Translations under genes and position numbers: made by a program
Shown here: positions 27,873-59,090 of the stretch, one piece after another
Numbering within the stretch: the stretch's first letter is position 1
Layout: each line of letters opens with the position of its first letter
Assembly (NCBI GenBank): GCA_948567375.1
Contig: OX419761.1
Coordinates: forward strand, 46,600,243-46,664,242
Length of the DNA: 64,000 nucleotides
Reading direction: 5' to 3'
Source: Lunularia cruciata
Taxonomy: Eukaryota > Streptophyta > Marchantiopsida > Lunulariales > Lunulariaceae
The notes under the pieces: generated by a model
Told to the model about the DNA's origin: nothing
Database searches by the model: none
What the model saw: the letters and a program-made list of their open reading frames with translations, nothing else

Positions 27873-28296
27873 TGTAAAAGACCAAGACCGAGGAGAGAAA
27901 TAGGAGAATGGAAGATCACATTGGGACACTTGAATGTGGGAAAACTCCAAATGCCTAGCATGAGCTTTGGCTCTTGTATTTATAGGGAGCATACAAGGCC
28001 CTATTGAAGCTTCCCAAGAAGCTTCTTTGGGCTGCTTTCTTGAAGTGAAAGCCAAGTTAAACGAGAAGCTTCTCACAAGCTTCCTGCTTGAAGTCATTTA
28101 CTTGGCATGCAAACTAAGCTGGTTGGAAGCTTCTAGAAGCTTTCTTCTAGAAACTACATACTTGGGGTGCAAGCTAAGCTAGTGAGAAGCTTCCCAAGAA
28201 GCTTCATAGATGCTTCTAGAATGTTATAGGCTAATTTGGCCTATTCATTACTTTCTTCACCTTGACTAACTTTGTTGCTAAACTCATATTGTTACA
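27873..28296 (-). repeat. E2 3' LTR
   Basis: On the minus strand TGTAACAATATGAG...CTTTTACA, 424 bp, matching 44,357-44,780. Contains several GAAGCTTC palindromes. The adjoining internal sequence (28,297-28,312, minus strand GCGGTGGGGGAATA) is the polypurine tract that primes plus-strand synthesis, which fixes this as the 3' LTR. Confidence 0.88.
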
Positions 28297-29080
28297 TATT
28301 CCCCCACCGCTAGTTGGTGACACCTTTGCTGCCATTGAAGCTTCAAACTCTTGGATGGATGTTTGTGTATTCTGAAGATAAGAAGGAAGCTCCCAAGTGG
28401 CATCATGAAGGGGATAGCCCTTCCAAAGGACCTTATACTCTTTATGTTGTTGGCAGTTGTGTTGGATGTCGTGATGTGCAAGTATACAATCAACTTTGTA
28501 CTCCTCATGATCATGGATAGAGATGGGAGGAGGAAGAGATTGGACACAAGAGGAAAAAGAAGATGGATTAGGAGCAAAGGATTTTAACTTGGACACATAA
28601 AAGATAGGGTGGATGCACATATGACAAGGTAGTGCAAGTCAATAAGCAACAAGAGAGATGACTTGGGTGACATCAAAGAGTCTTATCCAATCAAAAGCGA
28701 GATTACAAACTTGGGTATCAAGTGGGAGGGGCAATTTACTGGAAGAGAGCATGACTTTGTCACCAACTAGAAAGGTGAGATCACGATGATGTGGTCTGCA
28801 TATTAATTCTGACTCTTTTGAGCAACAAGGAGGTGAGACTTGGCTTGTTGGAGGGATTGGCATATGGTGGTCAAGAAGGTTGAAGTATGAGGGACATGAG
28901 ATGGAAGAGGAACAAGAAGGGACTCTAGAACAAGTGGATCTTGGCCAAAATTGAAAAAGAAAGGAGAGAATCCGGTGCTTGCCTATATGGAGTTATTGTA
29001 TGCAAACTCTACAATTGCAAGACATTCATCCCAATTGGTGTGATGAATATTGACGAATGCACAAAGCATATCCTCCAAGG
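28297..29080 (-). pseudogene. E2 integrase C-terminal part and chromodomain
   Basis: Minus-strand translation gives, from 29,080 leftward, NCTLEDMLCAFVNIHHTNWD and EFAYNNS (integrase end of core), then FLVGDKVMLSSSKLPL (28,639-28,863). A chromodomain follows at about 28,370-28,500 (EYKVDCILAHHDIQ, then EYKVLWKGYPLHDATWELP) with its aromatic and Trp residues. Chromodomains are typical of chromoviruses and direct integration to methylated-histone chromatin. Frames change between segments. Integrase resumes on the far side of E4 at 32.6 kb. Confidence 0.85.
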
Positions 29081-38620: not shown

Positions 38621-40038
38621 TTTGCCTGCTAAATCTAGCAATAAGATAGATCTTTTTGTGTCTCAAGTTAGACCAGAGGTTTTTGGTCTGTCTCTACTAC
38701 AAATGCTTTCTTGCCAAAATAGTGCTTCCAATGCTTGGTTGCTAGGACAATGGCCAACTCTTCTCGTTTTGAGGTGTGATAGTTGCACTCTATCGGTAAC
38801 AACTTTTGAGAGAAATATACAATTGGATGCTATCCATCATGCCACTCTTGTTGTAGGATTGCTCCTATTGCTATGTTTGATGCATCTGTAGCCAACTTGA
38901 TTGGATGTTTTGGATCATACCACTTCAAGATTGGTGCATGTAGCAAGGCAACTTTCAATTCTTGAAATGCCAACTCTTGTGTGGTTCCCCACGTCCACTT
39001 CTTCCCCTTGCCAAGTAGTGTCATTAAAGGCAGTGCAACCTTTGAGAAGTCCTTGAAAAATTGACAATAGAATCCCATCAATCCCAAGAAGCTCTTGAGT
39101 TGAGTTTGATCTTCTGTGGCACTCCATTTTTGAATGACCTCTATTCTATCTATCAATACTTGAATACCCTCTACACTTACTCTATGCCCCAAGTAGTCTA
39201 CTCTAGACTTGCCAAACTTACACTTTGACATTTTGGTGTACATTCAATTTTGTCTTAAAATCTAGAGGACTTCTTGTACATGCTATTTGTACTCCATCAT
39301 TGTGCTACTTTATTTTAAGATGTCATCCAGGAAGATGATAATATTATCTAAATATGGATGAAATATGTCATTCATGAGACTCATGGAAGTGGTATGTGCA
39401 TTGGTGAGGCCAAAAGGCATCACGAGATACTTAAAGTGACCATACTTGGTTCAAAAGGTAGTTTTGTACACATCCTCCTCTGCAAATTGGATTTGATTGT
39501 AATTGCTCCACAAGTATAGTTTGGTGAAGTATCTTGCTCCATTGAGTTGATCAAACAAGTCATCCATGCGAGGTAAGGGGTATTTGTTCTTCATTATTTG
39601 TTGATTGAGACCTTGATAGTCAATGCACATGCGCATTGTACCATCTTTCTTCTTCACAAACAAGACAAGAGCTCCATATGGTGATATGGTGGGTTAGATG
39701 AACCCTTTCTATAGCATATCCTCAATTTGAGTCTTACACTCCACCAACTCATGAGGTGATATGCAATATGGGGCCTTACAAGGAGGTGTCTTCCTCGGGG
39801 ATCTCTTAATTTTATGATCTACTCTACTTTTTGGTGGTAATCTTGAGGGTAGATCATTGGGAAAGACATCTTGAAACTCATTTAATACATTTTTCAATTT
39901 CTTAGGAATGTGTCTATCAAGTTGTGCACTTTGGACTTCTCTTATTAGACCCATGAAACATCTATTGGTCTTATAGATAGTTGTTGTCCCTATGACATAG
40001 AGAGGTAATTCTTGCTTGTGTGATTTTTTTAACCCCAA
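38621..40038 (-). pseudogene. E3 reverse transcriptase and RNase H
   Basis: Open pieces: 39,709-40,038 (NEFQDVFPNDLPSRLPP, CISPHELVE), 39,451-39,663 ([33 protein letters not shown]), the catalytic box FLDDIL near 39,315-39,335, and 38,830-39,243 (KMSKCKFGKSRVDYLGHRVS, then LATDASNIAIGAILQQ starting RNase H). RNase H continues in fragments to about 38,621. Only a few lesions separate the pieces. Confidence 0.85.
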
Positions 40039-44356: not shown

Positions 44357-44780
44357 TATAAAGGACCAAGACCAAGGAGAGAAATATTAGAATGGAAGAT
44401 CACATTGTGTACTTGAATGCGGTAAAACTCCAAATGCCTGGCATGAGTTTTGGCTTTCGTATTTATAATGAGCATACCATACCCTTGAGAAGCTTCTCAA
44501 GAAACTTCTTTGGGCTGATTTCTTAGAGTGAAAGCCAAGTTAACCGAGAAACTTCTCAATAAGCTTCCTTCTTGAAGCCGTATACTTGGCGTGCAAGCTA
44601 AGTTGGTTGGAAGCTTTTGGAAGCTTCCTTCAAGAAATTACATACTTGGGGTGCAAGGTAAACTATTGGAAAGTTTCCCAATAAGCTTCCTTTCTACTTC
44701 TAGAACATTCTAGGCTAATTTGGCCTATTCACTACTTTGTTCATCTTGACTAACTTTGTTGCTAAACTCCATATTGTTCA
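44357..44780 (-). repeat. E2 5' LTR
   Basis: Partner of 27,873-28,296, with the same GAAGCTTC-rich core. Termini are more decayed (TATAAAGG on the left, TTGTTCA on the right). No convincing target duplication could be read for E2. Confidence 0.85.
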
Positions 44781-49175: not shown

Positions 49176-49179
49176 CAGA

Positions 49180-49627
49180 TGTCACGCCATTTGTAGTTCC
49201 GCATCTAGATGCTCGGACACTGGAGTTCCAATGATGGTAGTTAGAGTTATTCTAGCTGTTTCTTAGGGACTACTTTCCGATGGTTAGATTTCATGTTCAG
49301 GGTACTGACTTCACGGTGGGGCCCACCGTCACTTTGCACCGTTTGCACCGTCGAGTGTGCCGTCAGTGGGACCGTTAGGGTTTCAGGGCTAGCTTGAGTC
49401 CAGGGGGTATAGTTTCGAAGTGAGCTCCAGAGAGCTCACTTCTCTGATGTTGAGCCTTCGAGTTCCTGGCTATGGTGGACAGAGGCCGGCGAGCGTCACC
49501 TGGATTCTCTATGCTTGAGTGGGTGTGGCTTGACTGTAATCAGTGCCCAGTTGTTGGCAGTTTATAGAGTGACAAATCAAGTACTGATCTGAGTTGAGTT
49601 GAGTTGAATTGTTAAGCAATCTGATTA
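49180..49627 (+). repeat. 5' LTR segment B
   Basis: 448 bp from TGTCACGCC to CTGATTA, colinear and without gaps against 58,533-58,980; 12 differences, all transitions. Segment A, which precedes B in the 3' LTR and would hold the start of U3 and a TATA-like TGTATATACG, is absent here, so the 5' promoter is probably incomplete. Confidence 0.9.
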
Positions 49628-49639
49628 CATCAGAGAAGT
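49625..49639 (+). other. Probable primer binding site
   Basis: ATCAGAG and AG at 49,629-49,638 align with the initiator-Met tRNA complement (TGGTATCAGAGCAGG); about 10 of 15 positions agree. It lies directly at the end of LTR segment B, the expected place. Confidence 0.5.
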
Positions 49640-51149
49640 GAAGTCAGGGGGAAATTGGGTGCAGGAACGCTGAGTGTTGGTGGTATCTCCAAGCTCGGTG
49701 GATCGTGGTAGCTCGATTCAGGTTCTATGTTTCCCTAGTGTGCAGAAGCTCGTGTAGTTGATGCAAATTTGGCAGTTAGGCGGACGATGTGCGGAAGCGC
49801 TGGCCAAATTTCGAGCAAAGAAGGAGCAATTTTCGAGCAGTGTTGTGATTTTGAGCTCAGGAGGTGAAGGCAGGACCAATTTGATGCGAGTTGGGCTCAA
49901 AAAGTGAAATTGAAGGTGGAGTTGGAAAGCTCTTCTCATGAAATTGTGATTTGGAAAAACCCATTTTGTCAATTTGGCTCGAGTGGAAAGTTAGCGGGGG
50001 ATTTGGCGGACATCCATCTTTAGGGTTTACGTCAGATTTGGAGGAGTTTCGCTGTTTGGCCAAATTTGGAGAAGTTCCGCTAGTTTGGAGGAGTTTCGTA
50101 GATTTGGAGAAGTTTCGCCAATTTTGGAGGAGGTTCGAAGTGGCAACAAGAAAGGCCTCATTTGGCTGAATTTCGGCGTTTCGAGGCTTCGAGGCATAGG
50201 GCTGTGGGCTATGAGAGGCTACGAAGGCCTAGAAGGGCCAGCAAGCCAGCTTGCTGGCGTGAGGCTAGCTAGTTTAGTGTAGATCTTGGTCATTGGTTGG
50301 CAAAATCTGCCTTTCTTGCTAGATTGTGCACAACAGGGTTTGACCCCTAGATCTCTTGTTCCTAGACTGGTGCCCTAGCCAACTGGTCCACCTTCACTTG
50401 TTGTCATAGTGACTGTGCCACTGTTATCTATACACATGTAGCTTTGGCTAGGAGAGGCAGTTTGATCCCATTCTTGGTGATCTTGGTAGCTTAGGACTTA
50501 GATACGAACTACTCTTATGTCAAATGCCAAATGGTGGCAGAGTCAGTCCCGTGTTGTGTTATGAGATGGAGGGTTTTTGTTTAGATTTCTTGTGATTGGA
50601 TCCCCTCCATTCTCTGCTTCCTGTTTGTGCACCACGTTTGTGTGAGGTGCCTTGACTTTTGAGCGTTGGTGCTCTGGTGTGCTCTCGGTGGTGAGGCTGG
50701 AGTGATGACCAGTCAGACTACCTTTGTTTCTCTCCGGTGAGGCAGGAAGTGATGACCTGTAGACTGTGAGAGTGCATGTAATGATGGCAGGTTACAGGTT
50801 GCCCTTCCCCTAGTGTAGTTATCTCGGTAGAGTTACATTAGTGGGTGGTGTTTAGTTGGTGTTGGCACGTGGTGGTGTTGGCACTTGGTGGAGCACTTGC
50901 AGTTGCGACTTGCGGTTGCAGTTGGTGGTTCGGGTTTGCTGTTGCAGTTACGTGGTCACGACGGAGTTCTTTGGAGATTCCAGAGGAGTTAGCCCTGCAG
51001 TACACAGTGGGTTTACTTGGAGTGGTACTCGGTATCAGCCTGTATCTCAGGTCCCAGTGAGGGAGGAGATTGACTCTGAGTTGGAGTTCGACACAGGAGC
51101 TGATTCAGTTGAGAGTGCACTTGGTGTGTCCGCACCGTTGTTGTGGGAC
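49640..51149 (+). other. Long untranslated leader of the DNMT retrotransposon
   Basis: About 1.5 kb between primer site and the first ATG of Gag. It contains a degenerate tandem repeat (50,035-50,140) and only short open frames. The polyprotein frame is already open from 50,856 but has no ATG before 51,150, and the in-frame residues there are Trp/Cys/Gly-rich and unlike Gag. A packaging signal or internal ribosome entry could reside here; the sequence does not show which. Confidence 0.6.
50035..50140 (+). repeat. Tandem repeat in the leader, about 5 units
   Basis: Five degenerate units of roughly 18-24 bp with core tttggagRagttYcg (R purine, Y pyrimidine) follow each other. Unit length varies. 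Could be a packaging or structural element, or slippage. Confidence 0.75.
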
Positions 51150-54100
51150 ATGGACGAGATTTATGGGGCCTCCAAAGGCCCTAGGCGTTACTCTGGTACA
51201 GTGGGTACCATTGAGTTGGATGACTTCATCCAAGAGTTTGATAGTTGGTGTGATCTGCAGCAGATGCGGAACCCGACTTTGTTCACACCTTTCATGGCAT
51301 GGAAGGGGTTGTTTCAGCACTTGGAGGGTCCACCAATGGACGACTACCATGAGTTCAGGACAGCTCATTTGGAGGAGATTGAGTTATGGAGACAATATTG
51401 GTCTCCACACTATGTCTCCATCACTTCAGGTTCGGTGGCCAGGAGTAGGTCGGCTGTACCTACGAGTTCTAGCTCGAGTAGTGTTGGTGGAGCTAGTGGA
51501 GGTGCACTAGTTGGAGATAGTGCTACTACGAGTGGAGGTACCGCTGTAGGAGGTGGTGTGGTACCAGGGTTTAACCCCATGGTTGAGTTCTTCCTATGTT
51601 TGAGGCAGAACTACCAGGGAGTGCGGATTGACAAGCTGAGGAGCTTGCAGGAGTTCCAGCGGAAGGCTGGAGAGAGCCTACGCGAGGCATACACTCGCAT
51701 GAGGCGGCTGATCAGTTTCACTCAGGGAGTTACTGAGGCCCAGGCAGTCCAGTTTTGGTATGGGATACTGGACAGGGAGTTGCGACGTAGAGTTTGTGAT
51801 GCTACGTTGTTGCAGGCTACTTCGCCCACTTTGGCAGTAGTCTTTGGTTTGGCTGAGCGTATTGAGCTCAACATGGTGGAGGAGAGAGTGGTGACATCTG
51901 GATTTGGTAGGGAGACCTCATCCACGGTTGTGACTTCTTCTAGAGTGCAGCAGAGTGCACCACGCCCAGTTGGTTTTCGAGGAGAGGGTGGACAGCCCAG
52001 ATCCTATGGAGCGAGTGGAGGGCCTAGTGGAGTTAGACCCTTACCCTCATTTTTGGGTCAGCAGCAGCCAGTGAGTGGTGGTGTTGCTTGTTGGACTTGT
52101 GGTGGACCTCACCATAGGAGAGAGTGTACTCAGGGCAGCGGACCTGATACCTCTGGTGCATCACAGCCAGCACAGAGGCAGTGTGAGCATTGCCATAGAT
52201 TTGGTCATACTAGTGACCGGTGTTTTGACCTACACCCGGAGTTACGGAGTGGTAGGGCTACTATGGCAGGTAGTAGAGGAGCTCCAGTTTATGGAGGACG
52301 AGGTGGTAGAGGTGGTGGTAGAGGATCTACACCTAGTAGGGGTGCAGTACCCGCCCTTACTTCTGACACAACTATGGCTACTCGGATTGAGCAGTTGGAG
52401 CAAAGATTGGCTAGTATGGCTATTGCTCAGAGGAGATCAGATTTGGGTGCTGAGGCTTCCACCTCATATGCTGGTGATAGAGATGCTTTGGACTTCATGT
52501 GCGGAGCAGCACAGGTGGATGCATCTGTAGCAGTGACTAGGAGTGCAGTACGTGCTCCAGAGCCTAGAGGAGCATCAGTGGAGTTGGACCCACAGAGAGG
52601 AGAGGTTGGGAGACAGGTCAGACTTCCCCAGTCTTTCACGCTATCTGAGGCATTGCAGATGACATCCATGGTTCCTAGACGTCCCAGTGCAGGTGTGGTA
52701 GGTGGTGATGGAGTACCTGATGGAGTACCTGCTAGTCAGCCACCTGCTACTACACAGACTGAGTCTAGCATGATGTTGGGGGCGGCTCAGCTGATTATGC
52801 GGCATCCTTTATTTTCAGCCAGTGACATGTTTACATTGGGAGTGGACCCAGCCCCAATGTTCCGGTTGGATGCCACGTTGTGTGAGAGTAGGGATGGTGC
52901 AGTTCCTACTACTAGAGCAGAGGTGGTTGGTAGTGGAGCTGACTTGGTTGAGGAGCATGGGATCCGTTCAACGACCAGTGGTTTATGGCAGGCAGCAACG
53001 GCTAGACTGGAGGAGTTGCCAGCTAGACCGGCCTTTGAGAGAGCGCGGTTTACACCTGGTGTTGTCCTATTGGATAACCAGAGGGGGATCTTTCGTTTGG
53101 TAGGACCTTCAGGGAAGGTCTATACACCACAGAGAGTCTTGTTAGACTCTGGTGCGCAGCCCCTTATGTTGGGGAAGGCTGCAGTTGTTGGTCTCGAGTT
53201 ACGGAAGACCGATGTGGAGAGGTGTCCATTTCAGATCCAGACATCTCTTGGTGGTGGTTCGACACAGTACATCACACGTGGGGAGCTTGTTGTCCAGGTT
53301 CAGCCTGGTCATCCAACTGATAGCTCAGTGGTGAGAGCTCAGGCTATTGCGACAATAGCTGAGTCATATGATGTGCTAGTTGGGGGAGCAGTGTTATACC
53401 CTATGGGTTTCAGTATTGACTATTGGGAGGAGACAGCCTCTTATAGACCTGGTTGGCAGTCTGGTGAGGGATGGGTATGTCGCCTACCAGTACGCTTCAG
53501 TAGTGGCAGTCTTGGCTCACTACAGTCCGGGACCATGGCAACATCAGTTTTGGCTTTCAGCGGTGCAGTTACTTGGCCTGGTGACTTGTTGGAGGGGAAC
53601 GCCCATGCAGAGGATACTCCAGTACCAGAGGAGATCACTCGGCTATGGAGTACGAGTGGGATTGTTCCATCCACCTTGGATGTTCCATTGTGGAGTTCAG
53701 AGGAGGCATTGCAGCAGCATGCGGATCAGTTGGTGCAGCAGGCTTGGAGTGGAGCCTTCGTACCATCAGGGGATGAGTGTGAGGATGAGCCTCCAGAGGC
53801 GATTGCTTTGACACCTCTGGATACCACACTCATTGCTTGGCAGTATCAAGTAGAGGGGATATGTCTATTGGAGTTGTTTGGTGGGATCAGCACCGGACTA
53901 GCTGTGGTGTTACAGGCGGGTATCCGAGTACAAAGGTACTTGTATGTAGAGAGAGATGAGACTGCTAGGCAAGTCTCTCTACATCATGTGGCACACTTGG
54001 CCTATCGGTATTCGGAGTTATTACCAATGTCAGCAGTCAGAGGTTACCAGAAGGCCTTACCAGGAGACATTTCCTTACTGGGGGCGCATGACCTAGAGAG

Positions 54101-55142
54101 ACATGGGCCTGTTCACTTGGTGATTTCTGGATGGCCATGTCAGGGACATACACGTGCGGGCCGCGGTTTGGGTCTTCAGGATCCTTGTTCTGGTGTGTTT
54201 TGGGAGATGTTACGGATACCACGACATCTCCAGGTTCATCAGTCTGTTTCTCCAGCTTACCTTTTGGAGAACGTTCCATTGATGGGTGATTCTCGCACTA
54301 GAGTGGTGGCGAGTACACATCAGGTCCATTCTTGGATGGGACCTGCTGTATTGTTAGATGCAGCCAGAGTGGGATCACGGGCTCATTGTCTTTGTCTTTG
54401 GTGGACGAACCTTTTACCCAGAGAGGTTCTACAGCGTAGTTATGATGGGATTCAGCGACTAGACCACATTCTTTTTGATGATATCTTGGATGCTGGACGT
54501 CAGTCTCAGACAGTGGTAGTGGCTGATAGGTCACCTATGGCAGTGGTGAACCTAGTTGGACAGCCTAGAGCTGCATTTCCCACACTCATGAGTTTCCCAG
54601 GCTCTCATGCTTTTCGAGAGGGAGGACCTGGACTTGTTTGGGACTCACAGTTACAACAGTTGGTGGAGCCCAATGTTGATGAGAGAGAGCGGGTGATGGG
54701 TTTTCGCACCGGTATTACCGCTGTTCCAGCAGTGTCAGAGGCATCCAGGCGTCAGGTGTTAGGTCAGGCTATGGACCTGAACTGTTTGACCTGGATTGTG
54801 AGCCTTGGTTTGGCAGAGCAGCGTAGGATGCGCTTGATAGGCATCACCACTCGGACACTTGTGAGCCCTGTGCCTATCAAGACAATTCAGGCACATGCTG
54901 GGGGCGATGGACCGAGTGGACATGGTATTCTTGGGACACATCCAGTAGCTACTAGGGAGAGTGGTCTACTTGGAGTCCATCCAGGTGAGCGTGGGCTACT
55001 TGGATTACACCCTTGGTCCACATGGGATGCAGCCAGAGGACGTATGGAGCTTGCAGCCAGAGTGGAGGGAGTTTTTCACATAGAGGTTGGGACCTCTAGT
55101 GGTCAGGAGCATGACACCATTGCTCCCAAGGGCCCAGTGTAG
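51150..55142 (+). CDS. Gag-protease-DNA cytosine methyltransferase polyprotein
   Basis: 1,330 codons from the first in-frame ATG to a UAG. Order by residue: capsid-like region (about 145-240; LREAYTRMRRLI, WYGILDRELRRRV), zinc knuckles at 314 (CX2CX3HX4C, one residue short) and 345 (canonical CX2CX4HX4C), RGG box near 381-392, and aspartic protease with DSG at 666 and DVLVGG near 735. The C5-methyltransferase covers about 900-1,225: motif I LLELFGGISTGL (906), motif IV SGWPCQ with catalytic Cys 997, motif VI LLENVP (Glu 1,040), motif VIII region 1,078, motif IX ERERVMGFRTG, motif X LGQAMDLN (1,204). Order I to X is linear, as in DNMT3 and unlike DRM. After it come three G(I/L)LGxHP repeats. 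The likely role is methylation of new element DNA or of insertion sites (inferred). Motif VIII has Cys-x-Cys instead of Arg-x-Arg, so this copy is probably inactive. Confidence 0.92.
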   Translation: MDEIYGASKGPRRYSGTVGTIELDDFIQEFDSWCDLQQMRNPTLFTPFMAWKGLFQHLEGPPMDDYHEFRTAHLEEIELWRQYWSPHYVSITSGSVARSRSAVPTSSSSSSVGGASGGALVGDSATTSGGTAVGGGVVPGFNPMVEFFLCLRQNYQGVRIDKLRSLQEFQRKAGESLREAYTRMRRLISFTQGVTEAQAVQFWYGILDRELRRRVCDATLLQATSPTLAVVFGLAERIELNMVEERVVTSGFGRETSSTVVTSSRVQQSAPRPVGFRGEGGQPRSYGASGGPSGVRPLPSFLGQQQPVSGGVACWTCGGPHHRRECTQGSGPDTSGASQPAQRQCEHCHRFGHTSDRCFDLHPELRSGRATMAGSRGAPVYGGRGGRGGGRGSTPSRGAVPALTSDTTMATRIEQLEQRLASMAIAQRRSDLGAEASTSYAGDRDALDFMCGAAQVDASVAVTRSAVRAPEPRGASVELDPQRGEVGRQVRLPQSFTLSEALQMTSMVPRRPSAGVVGGDGVPDGVPASQPPATTQTESSMMLGAAQLIMRHPLFSASDMFTLGVDPAPMFRLDATLCESRDGAVPTTRAEVVGSGADLVEEHGIRSTTSGLWQAATARLEELPARPAFERARFTPGVVLLDNQRGIFRLVGPSGKVYTPQRVLLDSGAQPLMLGKAAVVGLELRKTDVERCPFQIQTSLGGGSTQYITRGELVVQVQPGHPTDSSVVRAQAIATIAESYDVLVGGAVLYPMGFSIDYWEETASYRPGWQSGEGWVCRLPVRFSSGSLGSLQSGTMATSVLAFSGAVTWPGDLLEGNAHAEDTPVPEEITRLWSTSGIVPSTLDVPLWSSEEALQQHADQLVQQAWSGAFVPSGDECEDEPPEAIALTPLDTTLIAWQYQVEGICLLELFGGISTGLAVVLQAGIRVQRYLYVERDETARQVSLHHVAHLAYRYSELLPMSAVRGYQKALPGDISLLGAHDLERHGPVHLVISGWPCQGHTRAGRGLGLQDPCSGVFWEMLRIPRHLQVHQSVSPAYLLENVPLMGDSRTRVVASTHQVHSWMGPAVLLDAARVGSRAHCLCLWWTNLLPREVLQRSYDGIQRLDHILFDDILDAGRQSQTVVVADRSPMAVVNLVGQPRAAFPTLMSFPGSHAFREGGPGLVWDSQLQQLVEPNVDERERVMGFRTGITAVPAVSEASRRQVLGQAMDLNCLTWIVSLGLAEQRRMRLIGITTRTLVSPVPIKTIQAHAGGDGPSGHGILGTHPVATRESGLLGVHPGERGLLGLHPWSTWDAARGRMELAARVEGVFHIEVGTSSGQEHDTIAPKGPV
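53850..54820 (+). other. C5 cytosine methyltransferase domain (DNMT3-like)
   Basis: Domain-level entry. Motif I at 53,865-53,900; RYLYVERDETARQVSLHHV follows, with the acidic residue expected to contact S-adenosylmethionine. The PCQ catalytic Cys codon is 54,138-54,140, ENV is at 54,267-54,275, and the motif VIII position is at 54,381-54,398 (Ala-His-Cys-Leu-Cys-Leu). The motif IX-like segment runs 54,677-54,710 and motif X starts at 54,759. The ERVMGF...RRQVLGQ spacing matches the ERVFGF...RQRLLG region of DNMT3 enzymes. The region between VIII and IX is short, so the target-recognition domain is small, also DNMT3-like. Confidence 0.9.
54923..55015 (+). repeat. Three G(I/L)LGxHP repeats at the end of the first ORF
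   Basis: GILGTHP, GLLGVHP and GLLGLHP occur at uneven spacing of 13 and 10 residues between the methyltransferase and the UAG. No known motif; may be a flexible linker, a processing site series or a docking repeat. Confidence 0.75.
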
Positions 55143-55148
55143 CAGCCA
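55140..55148 (+). promoter_or_regulatory. UAG stop in a CAR-YYA readthrough context
   Basis: The stop reads TAG CAG CCA, matching the UAG-CAR-YYA signal known from tobamovirus-type translational readthrough, and the downstream RT frame is the same frame. This would give Gag-PR-MTase as the main product and the RT-integrase fusion as a minor one. The alternative is a decayed CAG codon, like the other stops in this copy. Confidence 0.5.
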
Positions 55149-56909
55149 GTCAGTACGTCTTCCACTCCTACTACAGTTACAGAGGATACTTGGGAGCCAG
55201 ATCTTGGACCCAAGCTTACTGGAGAGGAAAGACGGAGGGTTTGGAGGTTCTTGAGGAGTCACACGAGTTGTTTTGTCTTCAGTATGAAGGATTTGGGTGC
55301 TCTGAAGGGACCTGGTATACGGATTGAGCTGACTAGCAACACACCAGTTTTCCGACGTCCTTATTGATATAGTGATATGGAGAGGACATTGATTCAGAGC
55401 CGGAGTAGCGACCTTTTTGAGGCTGGTTTGGTGGAGATTTCACATGGAGAGTATGCATCAGCGACAGTGATGCCAGCCAAGAAGGATATGCATGGCAACT
55501 ATACAGATAGGCGGATGTGTGGAGATTACCGTCCTATCAACCGACAGACCAGGGCTGATCGGTATGCCATGCCTACACCGGAGGAGATTTTTGATGCGAT
55601 TGGGCATGCAAAGGTCTTCAGTACTTTGGATCTACGAGCGGGATATCATCAGTTGCCGATCAGGGAGGAGGATAAGTCCAAGACAACATTTTGGGCTATT
55701 GATCCTCACGGCAAGGATGTGTTATATCAGTGGAGATTCTTACCATTTGGGTTGAAGAATGCTCTTGCTGAGTTCCAAAGGGTCATGGATAGGATCCTAG
55801 CTGGACTGGATTTTGCTCGGTGCTATATTGATGACATTTTGGTGTATAGCACTACTGTGGAGGAGCATGAGAGACAGTTGTTGGAGGTGTTTGAGAGGTT
55901 GAGATCTCATGGACTCAAATTACATCCTTGGAAGTGTAGGTTCTTCCATGAGCAGGTTGAGTATTTGGGTCACACTATCTACCCCGGAGGACTTGGTGTT
56001 CAGCAGACCAAGGTGGAGGCTATTGCACGTATTCCTCGGCCTACGGATGTGAGCAGAGTGCGAGCATTCCTTGGGTTGGCGAACTTCTATCGCCGCTATG
56101 TTAGAGGATTTAGTGCCATTGCCAAGGCCTTGACGAAGCTGACCAAGCTTACACAGGAGTGGTGTTGGGGAGATGAGCAGGAGAGAGCTTTTGTAGAGCT
56201 CAAGGAGAGGTTGACATCTGCTCCTATTTTGAGGAGACCGATCAGGGGACGCCCATTTCAGGTTCACACTGATTGGAGTATGTTGGGGCTTGGAGCGGTG
56301 CTCACCCAACATGATGATGAGGAGAAGGAGTTTGTGGTGGCCTATGCTAGTCGCTCCAACAATTCAGCGGAGGCGAAGTATAGTTCATATGAGGGAGAGT
56401 GCTTGGCAGCAGTTTGGGCAGTAGCACATTTCCGATGTTACCTATTTGGTAACCCCTTCACTCTCATCACTGATCATCAGCCGCTGAAGTGGTTGATGGA
56501 GTCCGACAAGCTTTCAGGGAAGCTTGCACGATGGGCTCTGATTTTACAGGAGTATGATTTCACGATTGTTCACAGACCTGGAGTGGTGAACCGTGATGCA
56601 GATGGGTTGAGTAGAAACCCATGTCCCAGCCAGCAGGATCAGACCGGAGCACGTTGGCATGGTGAGACAGATGAGGAGATGGTGCCAAGTTGGCATGCAT
56701 CGGCCTTTTTGTGTATATTTGCAGAGACTTTGGTGATATCTCTCTCAGCGCATACAGGAGGAGTTATTGAGGTCACAGATCCAGAGAGTGAAGATATTGG
56801 TACAGTTCAGCGAGACATTCATGATGATGTCTTAGTGATGGACTATCTTCGCACTGGTGTTGTGGGTGGCACAGTTGGGGCCAAGGAGAGAGACCGTGTT
56901 CTTCAGTGA
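55143..56909 (+). pseudogene. Reverse transcriptase and RNase H (pol, broken)
   Basis: In frame with the upstream ORF. A UGA at 55,365 interrupts the conserved RRPY..YSDMER segment just before RT, at a position normally Arg. From 55,368 the frame is open for 513 codons: RT with ATVMPAKKDMHGNYTDRR, CGDYRPIN, STLDLRAGYHQLPI, LPFGLKNAL and catalytic YIDDILVYS (55,824-55,850). RNase H follows at about 56,240-56,610 with HTDWSMLGLGAVL, YEGECLAAVWAV, ITDHQPLKWL and NRDADGLSR, all catalytic acidic residues present. The frame ends at a UGA at 56,907, again where Arg is expected. Confidence 0.9.
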
Positions 56910-58256
56910 GCCAGACGGTTTAGATTGGAGGGTAGACACCTTTTGCGTGTATGGGAGGATGGTAGAGTGCGAGTAGTACCACTTCCATCACAAAGACCAT
57001 AGTTGGTCCGTCATGCTCATGAGGAGCTAGGACATTTTGGAGTAAAGCGTACATATAGCTTACTCCAGAGTCATTATTGGTGGCGCAATATGCAGACCGA
57101 GGTACAGCAGTTTGTTGCCAGATGTGTGGTTTGTGACCGAGTTAGAGCATCATTCAATGCTCCTACGCCACAGTTACACCCATTACCTATCATGGGATTG
57201 GGTTACCGTTGGAGTTTGGAGTTTGCCGGACCTTTACCGCTGACTGTGAGACATCATCGGTATGTTTTGGTGATGGTGGAGCACTTCTCCAAGTGGATTG
57301 AGTTGGTGGCACTTCTTGACAAGTCTAGTGAAGGGACAGCTTACTCGTTCCTGGATCGAGTTCTTAGTCATTTTGGTGCACCAGCTGAGGTTTTGACTGA
57401 TCAGGGTACAGAGTTCTTGGGAGAGTTTCAGGTCTTGTGTGACAAGGCTTTGATTGATCATCGTACTACATCCCGAGATCACCCTGAGGCAGATGGCTTA
57501 GCAGAGAGAGTGGTTCAGACGGTGAAGAGAGGATTGCAAAAGTATGGTTTGCAGAGAGGCCACTTGGGAGATTGGGATCTCCAGTTACCTTGGTTGGCCA
57601 TGGGCTATCGGTTCAGCCGGCAAGCCTCCTTAGCATCCTTCTCTCCATACTTTCTACTTTATGGACGAGATCCAGATTTACCTGCAGCCATTTGTCGAGA
57701 TGCTACTGTAGTTTTGGACTTGGATGACCCCAATGTATGGATGAGCGCATGTTCTCAACGGGCAGAGATCTTTCGGAGAGTGATGCCGATGGCCTTTGAG
57801 AACTTGGCGATTGCTCAGCATAGAGATACTTTACGCTATGCTACCATTCGAGGAGGAGGTTATAGACCCTCGATCCGTCGATTTCATCCAGGCAACTATG
57901 TATATCTACAGCAGACAGCACCGACGACACTTGATGTTTCTACAGGCCGCACTATCTTGAGAGTGCGCGAGGTTTTGCCATCTGGAGTCCTTGTGTTAGA
58001 AGGACGTGATGGTGTTGTTTGGAAGGATCATGTGCGCAATTGTGCGCCATGCCACCTCCCAAACATTGATGGTACTATGGACCCAAGCTTGGCACTTGTA
58101 CGTGCAGGCTTGAGGTGTATGTTATGTGGCTCTTCTGGTGGAGCTGCTACTATGTTAGTGTGTGATAGCTGTTCGAGAGGATGGCATATGGCATGTATGA
58201 CTCCTCCCCTCACGGTGGTTCCTCAGGGACAGTGGTTATGTCCTAGATGTACTTGA
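56910..58256 (+). pseudogene. Integrase with C-terminal PHD finger (pol, broken)
   Basis: Continues the same frame; a UAG at 57,000 lies just before LVRHAHEELGHFG, and from 57,003 the frame is open for 417 codons. Zinc-binding: H at 57,018 and 57,033 (HX4H) and CVVC. Core: WSLEFAGPLP, where the first catalytic Asp is Glu (57,219-57,221); LTDQGTEF with Asp at 57,399; and ADGLAERVVQ with Glu at 57,504, 35 positions on. The C-terminus (58,110-58,256) is a PHD finger with the full C4HC3 set and a Trp two residues before the last CxxC pair, ending at a UGA. No chromodomain is present. PHD fingers read histone H3 tails, so this is a likely integration-targeting module. Confidence 0.9.
58110..58256 (+). 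other. PHD finger domain
   Basis: Cysteine pairs CMLC and CDSC, then HMAC, then WLCPRC: C4HC3 with PHD-type spacing and the typical MLVCDSC and PPLTVVPQGQW segments. It ends one residue before the stop. It occupies the place of the chromodomain in E2 and E3. Confidence 0.92.
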
Positions 58257-58413
58257 CCTATAGCTAGTTCATTCTTTATATGGTATAGATTGCAGACAGG
58301 CGACTAACGATGGGGCTCCATAGCACCCGGCCTCCTGATCTTTGCCCATTAGAGGGTATACCATATACTTAGAGTAGATGGCTATCTGGAGTTAGAGGGA
58401 CCTAACCGCCAGC

Positions 58414-58425
58414 TAGGGGGGCAAT
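58414..58425 (+). other. Polypurine tract
   Basis: TAGGGGGGCAAT immediately before TGTGGCAC at 58,426. This is the expected primer for plus-strand DNA and marks 58,426 as the start of the 3' LTR. Confidence 0.65.
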
Positions 58426-58530
58426 TGTGGCACTTTAGAGTCTATGTATGACTTATGTGTGAGTTGTGCTTCTATAGTGTATGATGTTGACAGCGATGTA
58501 TGTTGTGTAGCGATGTATATACGCACGACA
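58426..58530 (+). repeat. LTR segment A, first copy (U3 start)
   Basis: 105 bp, TGTGGCACTTTAG to ACGCACGACA, following the polypurine tract; contains a TATA-like TGTATATACG. Repeated at 58,982-59,086 with two transitions. Absent at the 5' end of the element. Confidence 0.88.
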
Positions 58531-58532
58531 AC

Positions 58533-58980
58533 TGTCATGCTATTTGTAGTTCCGCATCTAGATGCTCGGACACTGGAGTTCCAATGATGGTAGTTAGAGT
58601 TATTCTAGCTGTTTCTCAGGGACTACTTTCCGATGGTTAGATTTTGTGTTCGGGGTACTGACTTCACGGTGGGGCTCACTGTCACTTTGCACCGTTTGCA
58701 CCGTCGAGTGTGCCATCAGCGGGACCGTTAGGGTTTCAGGGCTAGCTCGAGTCCAGGGGGTATAGTTTCGAAGTGAGCTCCAGAGAGCTCACTTCTCTGA
58801 TGTTGAGCCTTCGAGTTCCTGGCTATGGTGGACAGAGGCCGGCGAGCGTCACCTGGATTCTCTATGCTTGAGTGGGTGTGGCTTGACTGTAATCAGTGCC
58901 CAGTTGTTGGCAGTTTATAGAGTGACAGATCAAGTACTGATCTGAGTTGAGTTGAGTTGAATTGTTAAGCAATCTGATTA
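58533..58980 (+). repeat. 3' LTR segment B
   Basis: 448 bp colinear with 49,180-49,627. Separated from A by AC, so A-AC-B reads GACAACTGTCA, an inverted-repeat junction. Carries the tandem gagtt units near its end. Confidence 0.92.
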
Positions 58981-58981
58981 T

Positions 58982-59086
58982 TGTGGCACTTTAGAGTCTA
59001 TGTATGACTTATGTGTGAGTTGTGCTTCTATAGTGTATGATGTTGACAGCAATGTATGTTGTGTAGCGATGTATGTACGCACGACA
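58982..59086 (+). repeat. LTR segment A, second copy (element terminus)
   Basis: Same 105 bp as 58,426-58,530 (two transitions), separated from B by a single T, ending GACA just before the right target duplication CAGA. This B-T-A junction resembles an LTR-LTR joint. Confidence 0.9.
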
Positions 59087-59090
59087 CAGA

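Follow-up and report, generated by a model that had tools for sequence, protein, structure and literature searches.

It is not obvious why a genome parasite should carry an enzyme of the kind with which its host silences it, and the question is raised by a locus of Lunularia cruciata (Marchantiopsida) within the 64,000-nucleotide stretch of DNA that we analysed, referred to below as the window (assembly GCA_948567375.1, contig OX419761.1, positions 46,600,243 to 46,664,242). A first-pass annotation, made from the letters alone, had proposed that the open reading frame (ORF) at 51150–55142 belongs to a Ty3/gypsy retrotransposon with its own cytosine DNA methyltransferase (DNMT), like in kind to a case reported in charophyte algae. 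The domains bear this out; the annotation missed the split repeats and 4-bp target duplications, the PHD finger, the leaky UAG stop, the many genomic copies and the defects of this one. The element spans 49180–59086, and is larger than this frame (ORF1) alone. Its identity and architecture are secure. The explanation that we favour, at a probability of roughly 55%, is that it represents a defective copy of a multicopy streptophyte family of Gypsy type, which has long kept a captured DNMT of the DNMT3 type and puts it to use through the whole mechanism proposed further below.

The C5 cytosine methyltransferase domain lies at 53856–54797 of the forward strand, on which all other features of the element are also read, and sits in frame between an aspartic protease (AP) and a reverse transcriptase (RT). 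All five motifs recognised earlier, namely I, IV (SGWPCQ), VI (LLENVP), IX (ERERVMGF) and X (LGQAMDLN), are found in one open frame, and the C5 motifs run in linear order with the motif IV Cys at codon 54138 and the motif VI Glu at 54267; the limits of ORF1 were likewise given correctly, with an ATG at 51150 and the stop at 55140–55142. When the domain of the window copy was compared on its own with PDB chains, the best solved relative was DNMT3A (E 7.6e-10). A profile built from 12 members, 32–70% identical to the window copy, recovered C5 methyltransferases with greater strength, with DNMT3A at 4.8e-22, then DNMT3C and 3B, followed by DRM at 4e-10 to 2e-9 (over profile positions 3–134 only), HhaI at 3e-7 and DNMT2 at about 2e-5, and no chain named DNMT1 was present among its 56 PDB matches. 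By such sequence scores the enzyme falls in the DNMT3 class, nearer to DNMT3 than to DNMT1, DRM, DNMT2 or the bacterial enzymes. With the Pfam DNA_methylase model, the window copy falls just below the cut-off (21 bits against 22), 8 of the 11 relatives scanned score above it, and P0020, P0040 and P0045 have no match among those listed.

The window's own L. cruciata assembly (565,766,749 bases in 74 contigs) was searched for further copies, and from 13,716 first-look candidates 119 DNMT matches were scored, the window and 118 others at 94–97% identity, all of them covering residues 1–339 or 1–338. These 118 are a lower bound on the number of further copies, and they show that the DNMT domain is kept elsewhere in the genome, although its absence from other copies had been raised as the sign of a one-off. 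Copy counts given below refer to a set of 41, made of the window copy and the best 40 of the 118. In comparison with the Marchantia protein P0002, the DNMT is the best-conserved region of ORF1, at 71% identity, against 63% for gag, 62% for the protease and 42–52% for the linkers, other stretches and the tail. Polymorphisms within the 41 copies tell a compatible story: in the DNMT, those seen once comprise 68 amino-acid or stop changes and 33 silent ones, and those shared by at least three copies 15 and 20 (Fisher p 0.015), while in the RT-RNase H (RT-RH) region the corresponding figures are 114 and 49, and 22 and 23 (Fisher p 0.013). Selection on the DNMT is, on these modest statistics, about as strong as selection on the RT. 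Purifying selection, with Ka/Ks below 0.2, was reported for the Klebsormidium nitens copies (de Mendoza et al. 2018, PMC5890265).

The ends of the element are not the plain long terminal repeats (LTRs) of the first-pass annotation; they are split direct repeats. The element reads A-internal-B-A-B, where a 107-bp B flanks A2 on both sides. A1 (448 nt, 49180–49627) forms the left end, begins with TGTC and is 97.3% identical to A2 (448 nt, 58533–58980), and B1 (107 nt, 58424–58530, terminal GACA) is 98.1% identical to B2 (107 nt, 58980–59086), which forms the right end and also terminates in GACA. Immediately outside stands a target-site duplication, CAGA, at 49176–49179 and again, with the same 4 bp, at 59087–59090 (both unstranded). 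The ends of the 40 further copies were fetched, and in 34 of these copies the left end is A and the right end B-A-B; in the other six, where absence was judged within the fetched stretch of flank, two have A-B only on the right, one has no left A, one no right match, one B only, and one is expanded. B was found upstream of A in none of the 39 left ends showing an A in these 40 copies. Two of the 41 copies were unreadable for the target duplication; an exact 4-bp duplication flanks 32 of the remaining 39 (window included), against 3 of 1482 mismatched control pairs. The seven copies without it include one that is masked, the expanded one, and five whose flanks differ, and the count rises to 33 of 39 if the expanded copy, with AGGC on both outer sides, is included. 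By the same measure no copy has a 5-bp duplication. The element starts with TGTC in 39 of 39 copies and ends with GACA in 36 of 39. Because exact 4-bp duplications of the target flank the copies, insertion can be ascribed to the DDE (rve) integrase, which is thereby shown to insert a split-repeat element. Ordinary LTRs followed by a stray second LTR at 58980–59086 were also considered, and are ruled out by the recurrence of the layout in 34 of 40 copies and by the position of the duplications outside B2. At its right end the expanded copy (G000 C11) has the B-A unit three times over, A-int-(BA)x3-B, and it is enclosed by a matching 4-bp duplication; unequal exchange or a replication slip would explain the array.

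The integrase of this family therefore joins ends that lie inside the repeat unit, in conflict with the textbook LTR cycle. A polypurine-like AGGGGGG (58415–58421) stands directly 5' of B1, and AGCTAGGGGGGCGA is present in 31 of the 37 right ends readable on that side; at the other end, the start of the internal region after A1 (49628–49643) is a candidate primer-binding region. The A1|CATCAGAGAAGTGAAGT junction there is conserved, 24 of the 29 readable left ends having it in identical form, but non-canonical, as inspection by eye showed no match to a canonical tRNA 3' end. Taken together, these polypurine-like and primer-side landmarks would imply a repeat unit B-A, with the integration ends 107 bp away. 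Reverse transcription by the textbook from such landmarks would give B-A-internal-B-A, and opening the same circle 107 bp away yields the integrated form. The B1-A2 joint reads GACA-2 nt-TGTC in the window and in 30 of 40 right ends, 26 of these having GACAGCTGTC, and is thus formed by the two outer ends of the element set against each other. Random cutting of a 2-LTR circle at its two identical B|A joints predicts left ends of the form A-B-A, seen in 0 of 39, and this model was rejected in its simple form; with an asymmetry, circle cutting is a possibility. It follows from the failure of random cutting that either one joint is special, for instance by being open in the complementary DNA (cDNA), or B1-A2 serves as an internal template on which the ends are completed. 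End completion on an internal template has been proposed for DIRS elements.

The coding part is divided by a stop codon. ORF1 (51150–55142) encodes Gag, AP and DNMT, and its ATG has a homologous counterpart in the relative P0001. Gag is represented by two CCHC knuckles (52089–52127 and 52182–52223), found by eye and then checked, and by a weak Pfam Retrotrans_gag match (E 0.08); the protease domain (LLDSGAQ, 53124–53387) was placed with a profile from relatives that have Pfam aspartyl-protease matches. Between DNMT and RT stands UAG CAG CCA (55140–55148), with one frame on both sides. The UAG at 55140 is kept in 40 of the 41 copies, and CAR-YYA follows it in 39, of the other two one having a deletion that cuts into CAR-YYA and one being gapped across the entire site. 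Readthrough in tobacco mosaic virus was found to depend on this CAR-YYA hexanucleotide immediately 3' of UAG, and readthrough candidates had been noted earlier in rice gypsy elements (PMC2754532). Since UAG-CAR-YYA lies 3' of the DNMT, the enzyme stands on the Gag side of the stop, and should, as predicted from this signal, be made at Gag level.

Beyond the stop, the RT-RH stretch (55377–56909) contains the RT (55512–55979, PF00078, 6.3e-30) and RNase H (56166–56555, PF17917, 9.7e-37), and the integrase (57003–58256) comprises an H2C2 domain (57003–57146, PF17921, 2.9e-16), the rve core (57204–57485, PF00665, 7.1e-11) and, at its C-terminus, a PHD finger (58116–58250, PF00628, 7e-11). The order AP-RT-RNase H-integrase (rve) with a gypsy-type RT, the short target duplication and the TG...CA ends are those of a Ty3/gypsy element; identical LTRs at both ends are not, the ends here being A and B of A-int-B-A-B. 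Pfam matched no phage-integrase family in any of the three ORFs, so that the tyrosine recombinase of DIRS and PAT elements was not found, and no Chromo domain, as in chromoviruses, was matched by Pfam at the integrase C-terminus, where the PHD finger stands. By sequence, the best solved matches of this finger include CHD4, KMT2D, MLL3, PHF12, DPF3, KDM5, PHF21A, ATXR5 and UHRF1; several of these read unmodified H3K4. Using a profile seeded from the family, a PHD was found in 17 of the 18 relatives whose integrase is followed by at least 260 residues, the exception, P0045, having a sub-threshold Pfam PHD match.

Relatives were sought among public proteins with ORF1 (45 matches), with the DNMT profile (best 120 of 325 matches) and with the RT (best 120 of 4166), and domain maps were made for all 45 ORF1 matches and for all 285 proteins listed. 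DNMT-bearing relatives come from Marchantia polymorpha, M. paleacea, Riccia sorocarpa, Calypogeia fissa and four Sphagnum species, as well as from metagenomes, and four Closterium proteins (P0207, P0263, P0272 and P0279) have DNMT pieces upstream of the RT, short ones whose placement in the DNMT tree is unsure. For the RT, the nearest named kin among the matches listed are liverworts. K. nitens appears among the matches listed for the RT only (P0188, P0227 and P0268), its DNMT being absent from the 45 ORF1 matches and from the best 120 of 325 profile matches. Two domain orders coexist, and the PHD accompanies the DNMT in both: in the bryophyte order (type I) AP-DNMT precedes RT-RH-integrase-PHD, and in the other (type II) the DNMT lies inside RT-RH-DNMT-integrase-PHD, as shown, or fitted as fragments, by 23 of the 24 metagenomic proteins P0021–P0044. 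The exception, P0030, has a DNMT without an RT, and a protease match in the precomputed Pfam list; P0045 has its DNMT ahead of the RT. Motif IV reads GWECQ or GFECQ, not PCQ, in 14 of the 24 type II rows, with the Cys kept and the preceding Pro replaced by Glu. A 612-residue predicted Marchantia protein, P0144 (Mp_7g09570), has DNMT pieces and a PHD without RT or integrase, and is either a deleted element or a gene-model artefact.

In the RT tree (FastTree, 95 rows), the 17 type II rows fall in one 19-row branch with support 100, whose other two rows have a predicted protein without a DNMT; the type I rows are spread according to host, P0045 stands apart, and the three K. nitens Gypsy RTs share a 35-row set with the bryophyte clade (support 80). 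In the DNMT tree (85 rows), type II clusters with five rows of no assigned type (support 91), and rooting on DNMT3A, whose branch is very long, places this group within type I. With midpoint rooting, a 32-row DNMT tree has types I and II as its two sides and P0030 inside type II, and a single type II clade without P0030 is not rejected there (approximately unbiased test, p-AU 0.112). If captured once, the DNMT moved within the polyprotein at least once. Distances between the RTs rise with those between the DNMTs (r 0.867, n 20, 0 of 2000 permutations; r 0.871 and n 16 for type II alone), as expected if both travelled together. One scan of IMG/VR gave no relative, and a second, of at least 80 loci, gave only partial C5 methyltransferase matches at 20–48%, phage-like by their scores and contig types.

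Retrotransposon DNMTs are already known from Klebsormidium and Symbiodinium, and the window family belongs in kind with KnitGypsy-Dnmt3 of K. nitens. Both have Gypsy domains, a DNMT3-type DNMT within a retrotransposon ORF and purifying selection, and the repeat layout of KnitGypsy-Dnmt3 is reported as that of a DIRS retrotransposon (PMC5890265, Fig. 4 legend), so that, judged against the text of that paper, Gypsy domains, DNMT3 and DIRS-like repeats are found together in the window family as well. The host group is a different one, and the words PHD, readthrough and target site are absent from the main text of PMC5890265, where target-site duplications are given for SymbioLINE only. SymbioDIRS-Dnmt3 of Symbiodinium also has a DNMT3 in a retrotransposon, A-coding region-B-A-B repeats and two coexisting domain orders, but uses a tyrosine recombinase and not an rve integrase (PMC5890265). 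PAT and Ngaro share the split direct repeats A1-B1-A2-B2, and a methyltransferase domain is carried by DIRS elements (PMC4157794). The DIRS enzyme, however, is a Dam-like adenine methyltransferase (PMC5890265), unlike the C5 cytosine DNMT here, and PAT, DIRS and Ngaro rely on a tyrosine recombinase, unlike the rve integrase with 4-bp target duplications of the window family; the domains of KnitGypsy-Dnmt3 suggest an rve integrase, in contrast to PAT, Ngaro and SymbioDIRS-Dnmt3. Chromoviruses offer another likeness, a chromatin-reader module at the integrase C-terminus (PMC3605345), which is a chromodomain there and a PHD finger here, the DNMT and split repeats being further differences. In the parts of the literature searched, no Gypsy element with a DNMT was seen reported from a bryophyte, and within the same scope the occurrence in land plants, the accompanying PHD, the leaky stop, the two domain orders and the target duplications showing integrase insertion of a split-repeat element are new.

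Gypsy and DIRS are only distantly related (PMC5890265), and a methyltransferase together with split or DIRS-type repeats recurs across unrelated integration enzymes, as in DIRS/PAT elements with an adenine methyltransferase, SymbioDIRS-Dnmt3, and rve-integrase elements like that of the window. Should this association be causal, which we put forward very tentatively, the repeats would point to a cDNA of uncommon shape, perhaps a circle or a molecule with ends templated internally. Methylation would then control the ends or the junction of this cDNA (in the window family, the GACA-GC-TGTC joint present in most copies), and the family would be one that inserts such a cDNA by means of a DDE integrase.

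As for the enzyme itself, the likeliest role would be self-methylation of the cDNA. Most ribosomes would halt at the leaky UAG and release Gag-protease-DNMT, and a minority would read through and add RT-RNase H-integrase-PHD, so that particles would hold the DNMT at a Gag-like excess over the RT. There, the DNMT would methylate the new double-stranded cDNA de novo, presumably at CG if it resembles DNMT3 and SymbioDIRS-Dnmt3, two DNMTs of the latter having produced de novo CG methylation in yeast (PMC5890265). The integrase-PHD, its finger reading the histone H3 tail at the target site, would then insert the methylated cDNA, host maintenance enzymes would keep the mark, and the new copy would arrive already resembling silent resident DNA.

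Against the hiding from host silencing that the first-pass annotation considered, the copies bear the mutational scar expected of dense methylation at CG and CHG. A1 and A2 differ by a Kimura two-parameter (K2P) distance of 0.007–0.046 (median 0.017, 19 copies, some over part of A and one over 131 bases), and the differences counted comprise 138 transitions at C or G (68 CG, 47 CHG, 23 CHH) against 17 transversions, in a repeat with 32 CG, 49 CHG and 139 CHH sites. Private C-to-T changes per site amount, in the 41 copies, to 0.29 at CG and 0.32 at CHG, against 0.10 at CHH, a pattern that CG and CHG methylation in plants should leave, and because of this excess the family is probably well methylated; the DNMT therefore gives its copies no shield from host methylation.

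Several points weigh against our preferred explanation. Host enzymes alone could account for the CG and CHG decay, and the kinship of the DNMT consists of sequence scores against PDB chains only. The KnitGypsy-Dnmt3 enzyme, the one Gypsy DNMT assayed in other work, gave no methylation in yeast, a result that its authors called inconclusive (PMC5890265). The ratio of amino-acid-changing to silent polymorphisms (N/S) is uneven in the DNMT, at 1.67, 1.1, 0.55 and 0.89 for changes in 1, 2, 3–5 and 6 or more copies, and in RT-RH (2.1, 1.72, 1.88 and 0.13) the drop is confined to the last class. In-frame stops from 51150 onward lie at 55140, 55365, 56907, 57000 and, finally, 58254, three of them (55365, 56907 and 57000) being extra, and the window copy lacks both motif VIII Arg residues (codons 54387 and 54393 are Cys); owing to these Cys codons and the extra stops it is probably inactive and non-autonomous. 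Across the 41 copies, the two motif VIII positions read R/C/H/L 31/7/2/1 and R/C 25/16, so that one of them is Cys in 16 copies.

These motif VIII changes would suit a domain that persists for nucleic-acid binding or as a structural part akin to Gag and can do without catalysis, as would the GWECQ that replaces GWPCQ in 12 of the 24 type II relatives. The motif IV Cys and the motif VI Glu, though, are each present in 41 of 41 copies, the Cys and Glu-Asn columns are invariant across the 12 divergent members, and the Arg-to-Cys changes would fit CG decay, which makes this reading quite improbable. Somewhat easier to entertain, if still unlikely, is that the main substrate of the DNMT is not particle cDNA; it would be host chromatin at the insertion site or close by, to which the PHD would guide the enzyme and where it would seed heterochromatin. 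The integrase does carry a PHD with solved kin such as KDM5, PHF21A, ATXR5 and UHRF1, and PHD and DNMT occur together in both domain orders; yet the two are distant in the polyprotein, one in ORF1 and the other in the readthrough product, their amounts would be unequal if readthrough works as proposed, and the 32 target sites show no obvious sequence motif. Methylation of RNA, either the genomic RNA or a primer tRNA, was proposed for SymbioLINE-Dnmt by de Mendoza et al. (PMC5890265), and co-expression at Gag level would place the DNMT on packaged RNA, but among solved structures the DNMT3 enzymes come closest, by a wide margin over DNMT2, and we hold this role to be very unlikely. Virtually no chance is left for a one-off chimera or assembly join, which only the rarity of the architecture would favour and which is refuted by the 118 further genomic matches and the DNMT-bearing relatives in five named genera.

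Self-methylation by the retrotransposon remains the explanation we prefer, and the family moves the case of retrotransposon DNMTs from algae to land plants, with many copies. It suggests a concrete stoichiometry, the DNMT being encoded together with Gag ahead of a leaky stop, and has in the PHD a second chromatin module conserved alongside the DNMT. Marchantia, a laboratory model, is among the hosts, and its particles, cDNA and methylomes are open to study. Ty3/Gypsy bursts are reported to have inflated the L. cruciata genome (PMC9985172), and the DNMT-bearing family may be part of them.

In the 64-kb window as a whole no tRNA gene was found, and Rfam gave no match at the gathering threshold. 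Two 56-nt direct repeats of no assigned nature, 71% alike and with starts 60 bases apart, lie at 44561–44676. G+C content is 50.1% within the element (49180–59086), along which G exceeds C, against 36.6% in the remaining window. Upstream, on the reverse strand, are retroelement remnants, chromodomain-bearing and other, at 28234–28620 and 38833–39243 (PF00385; PF17919).

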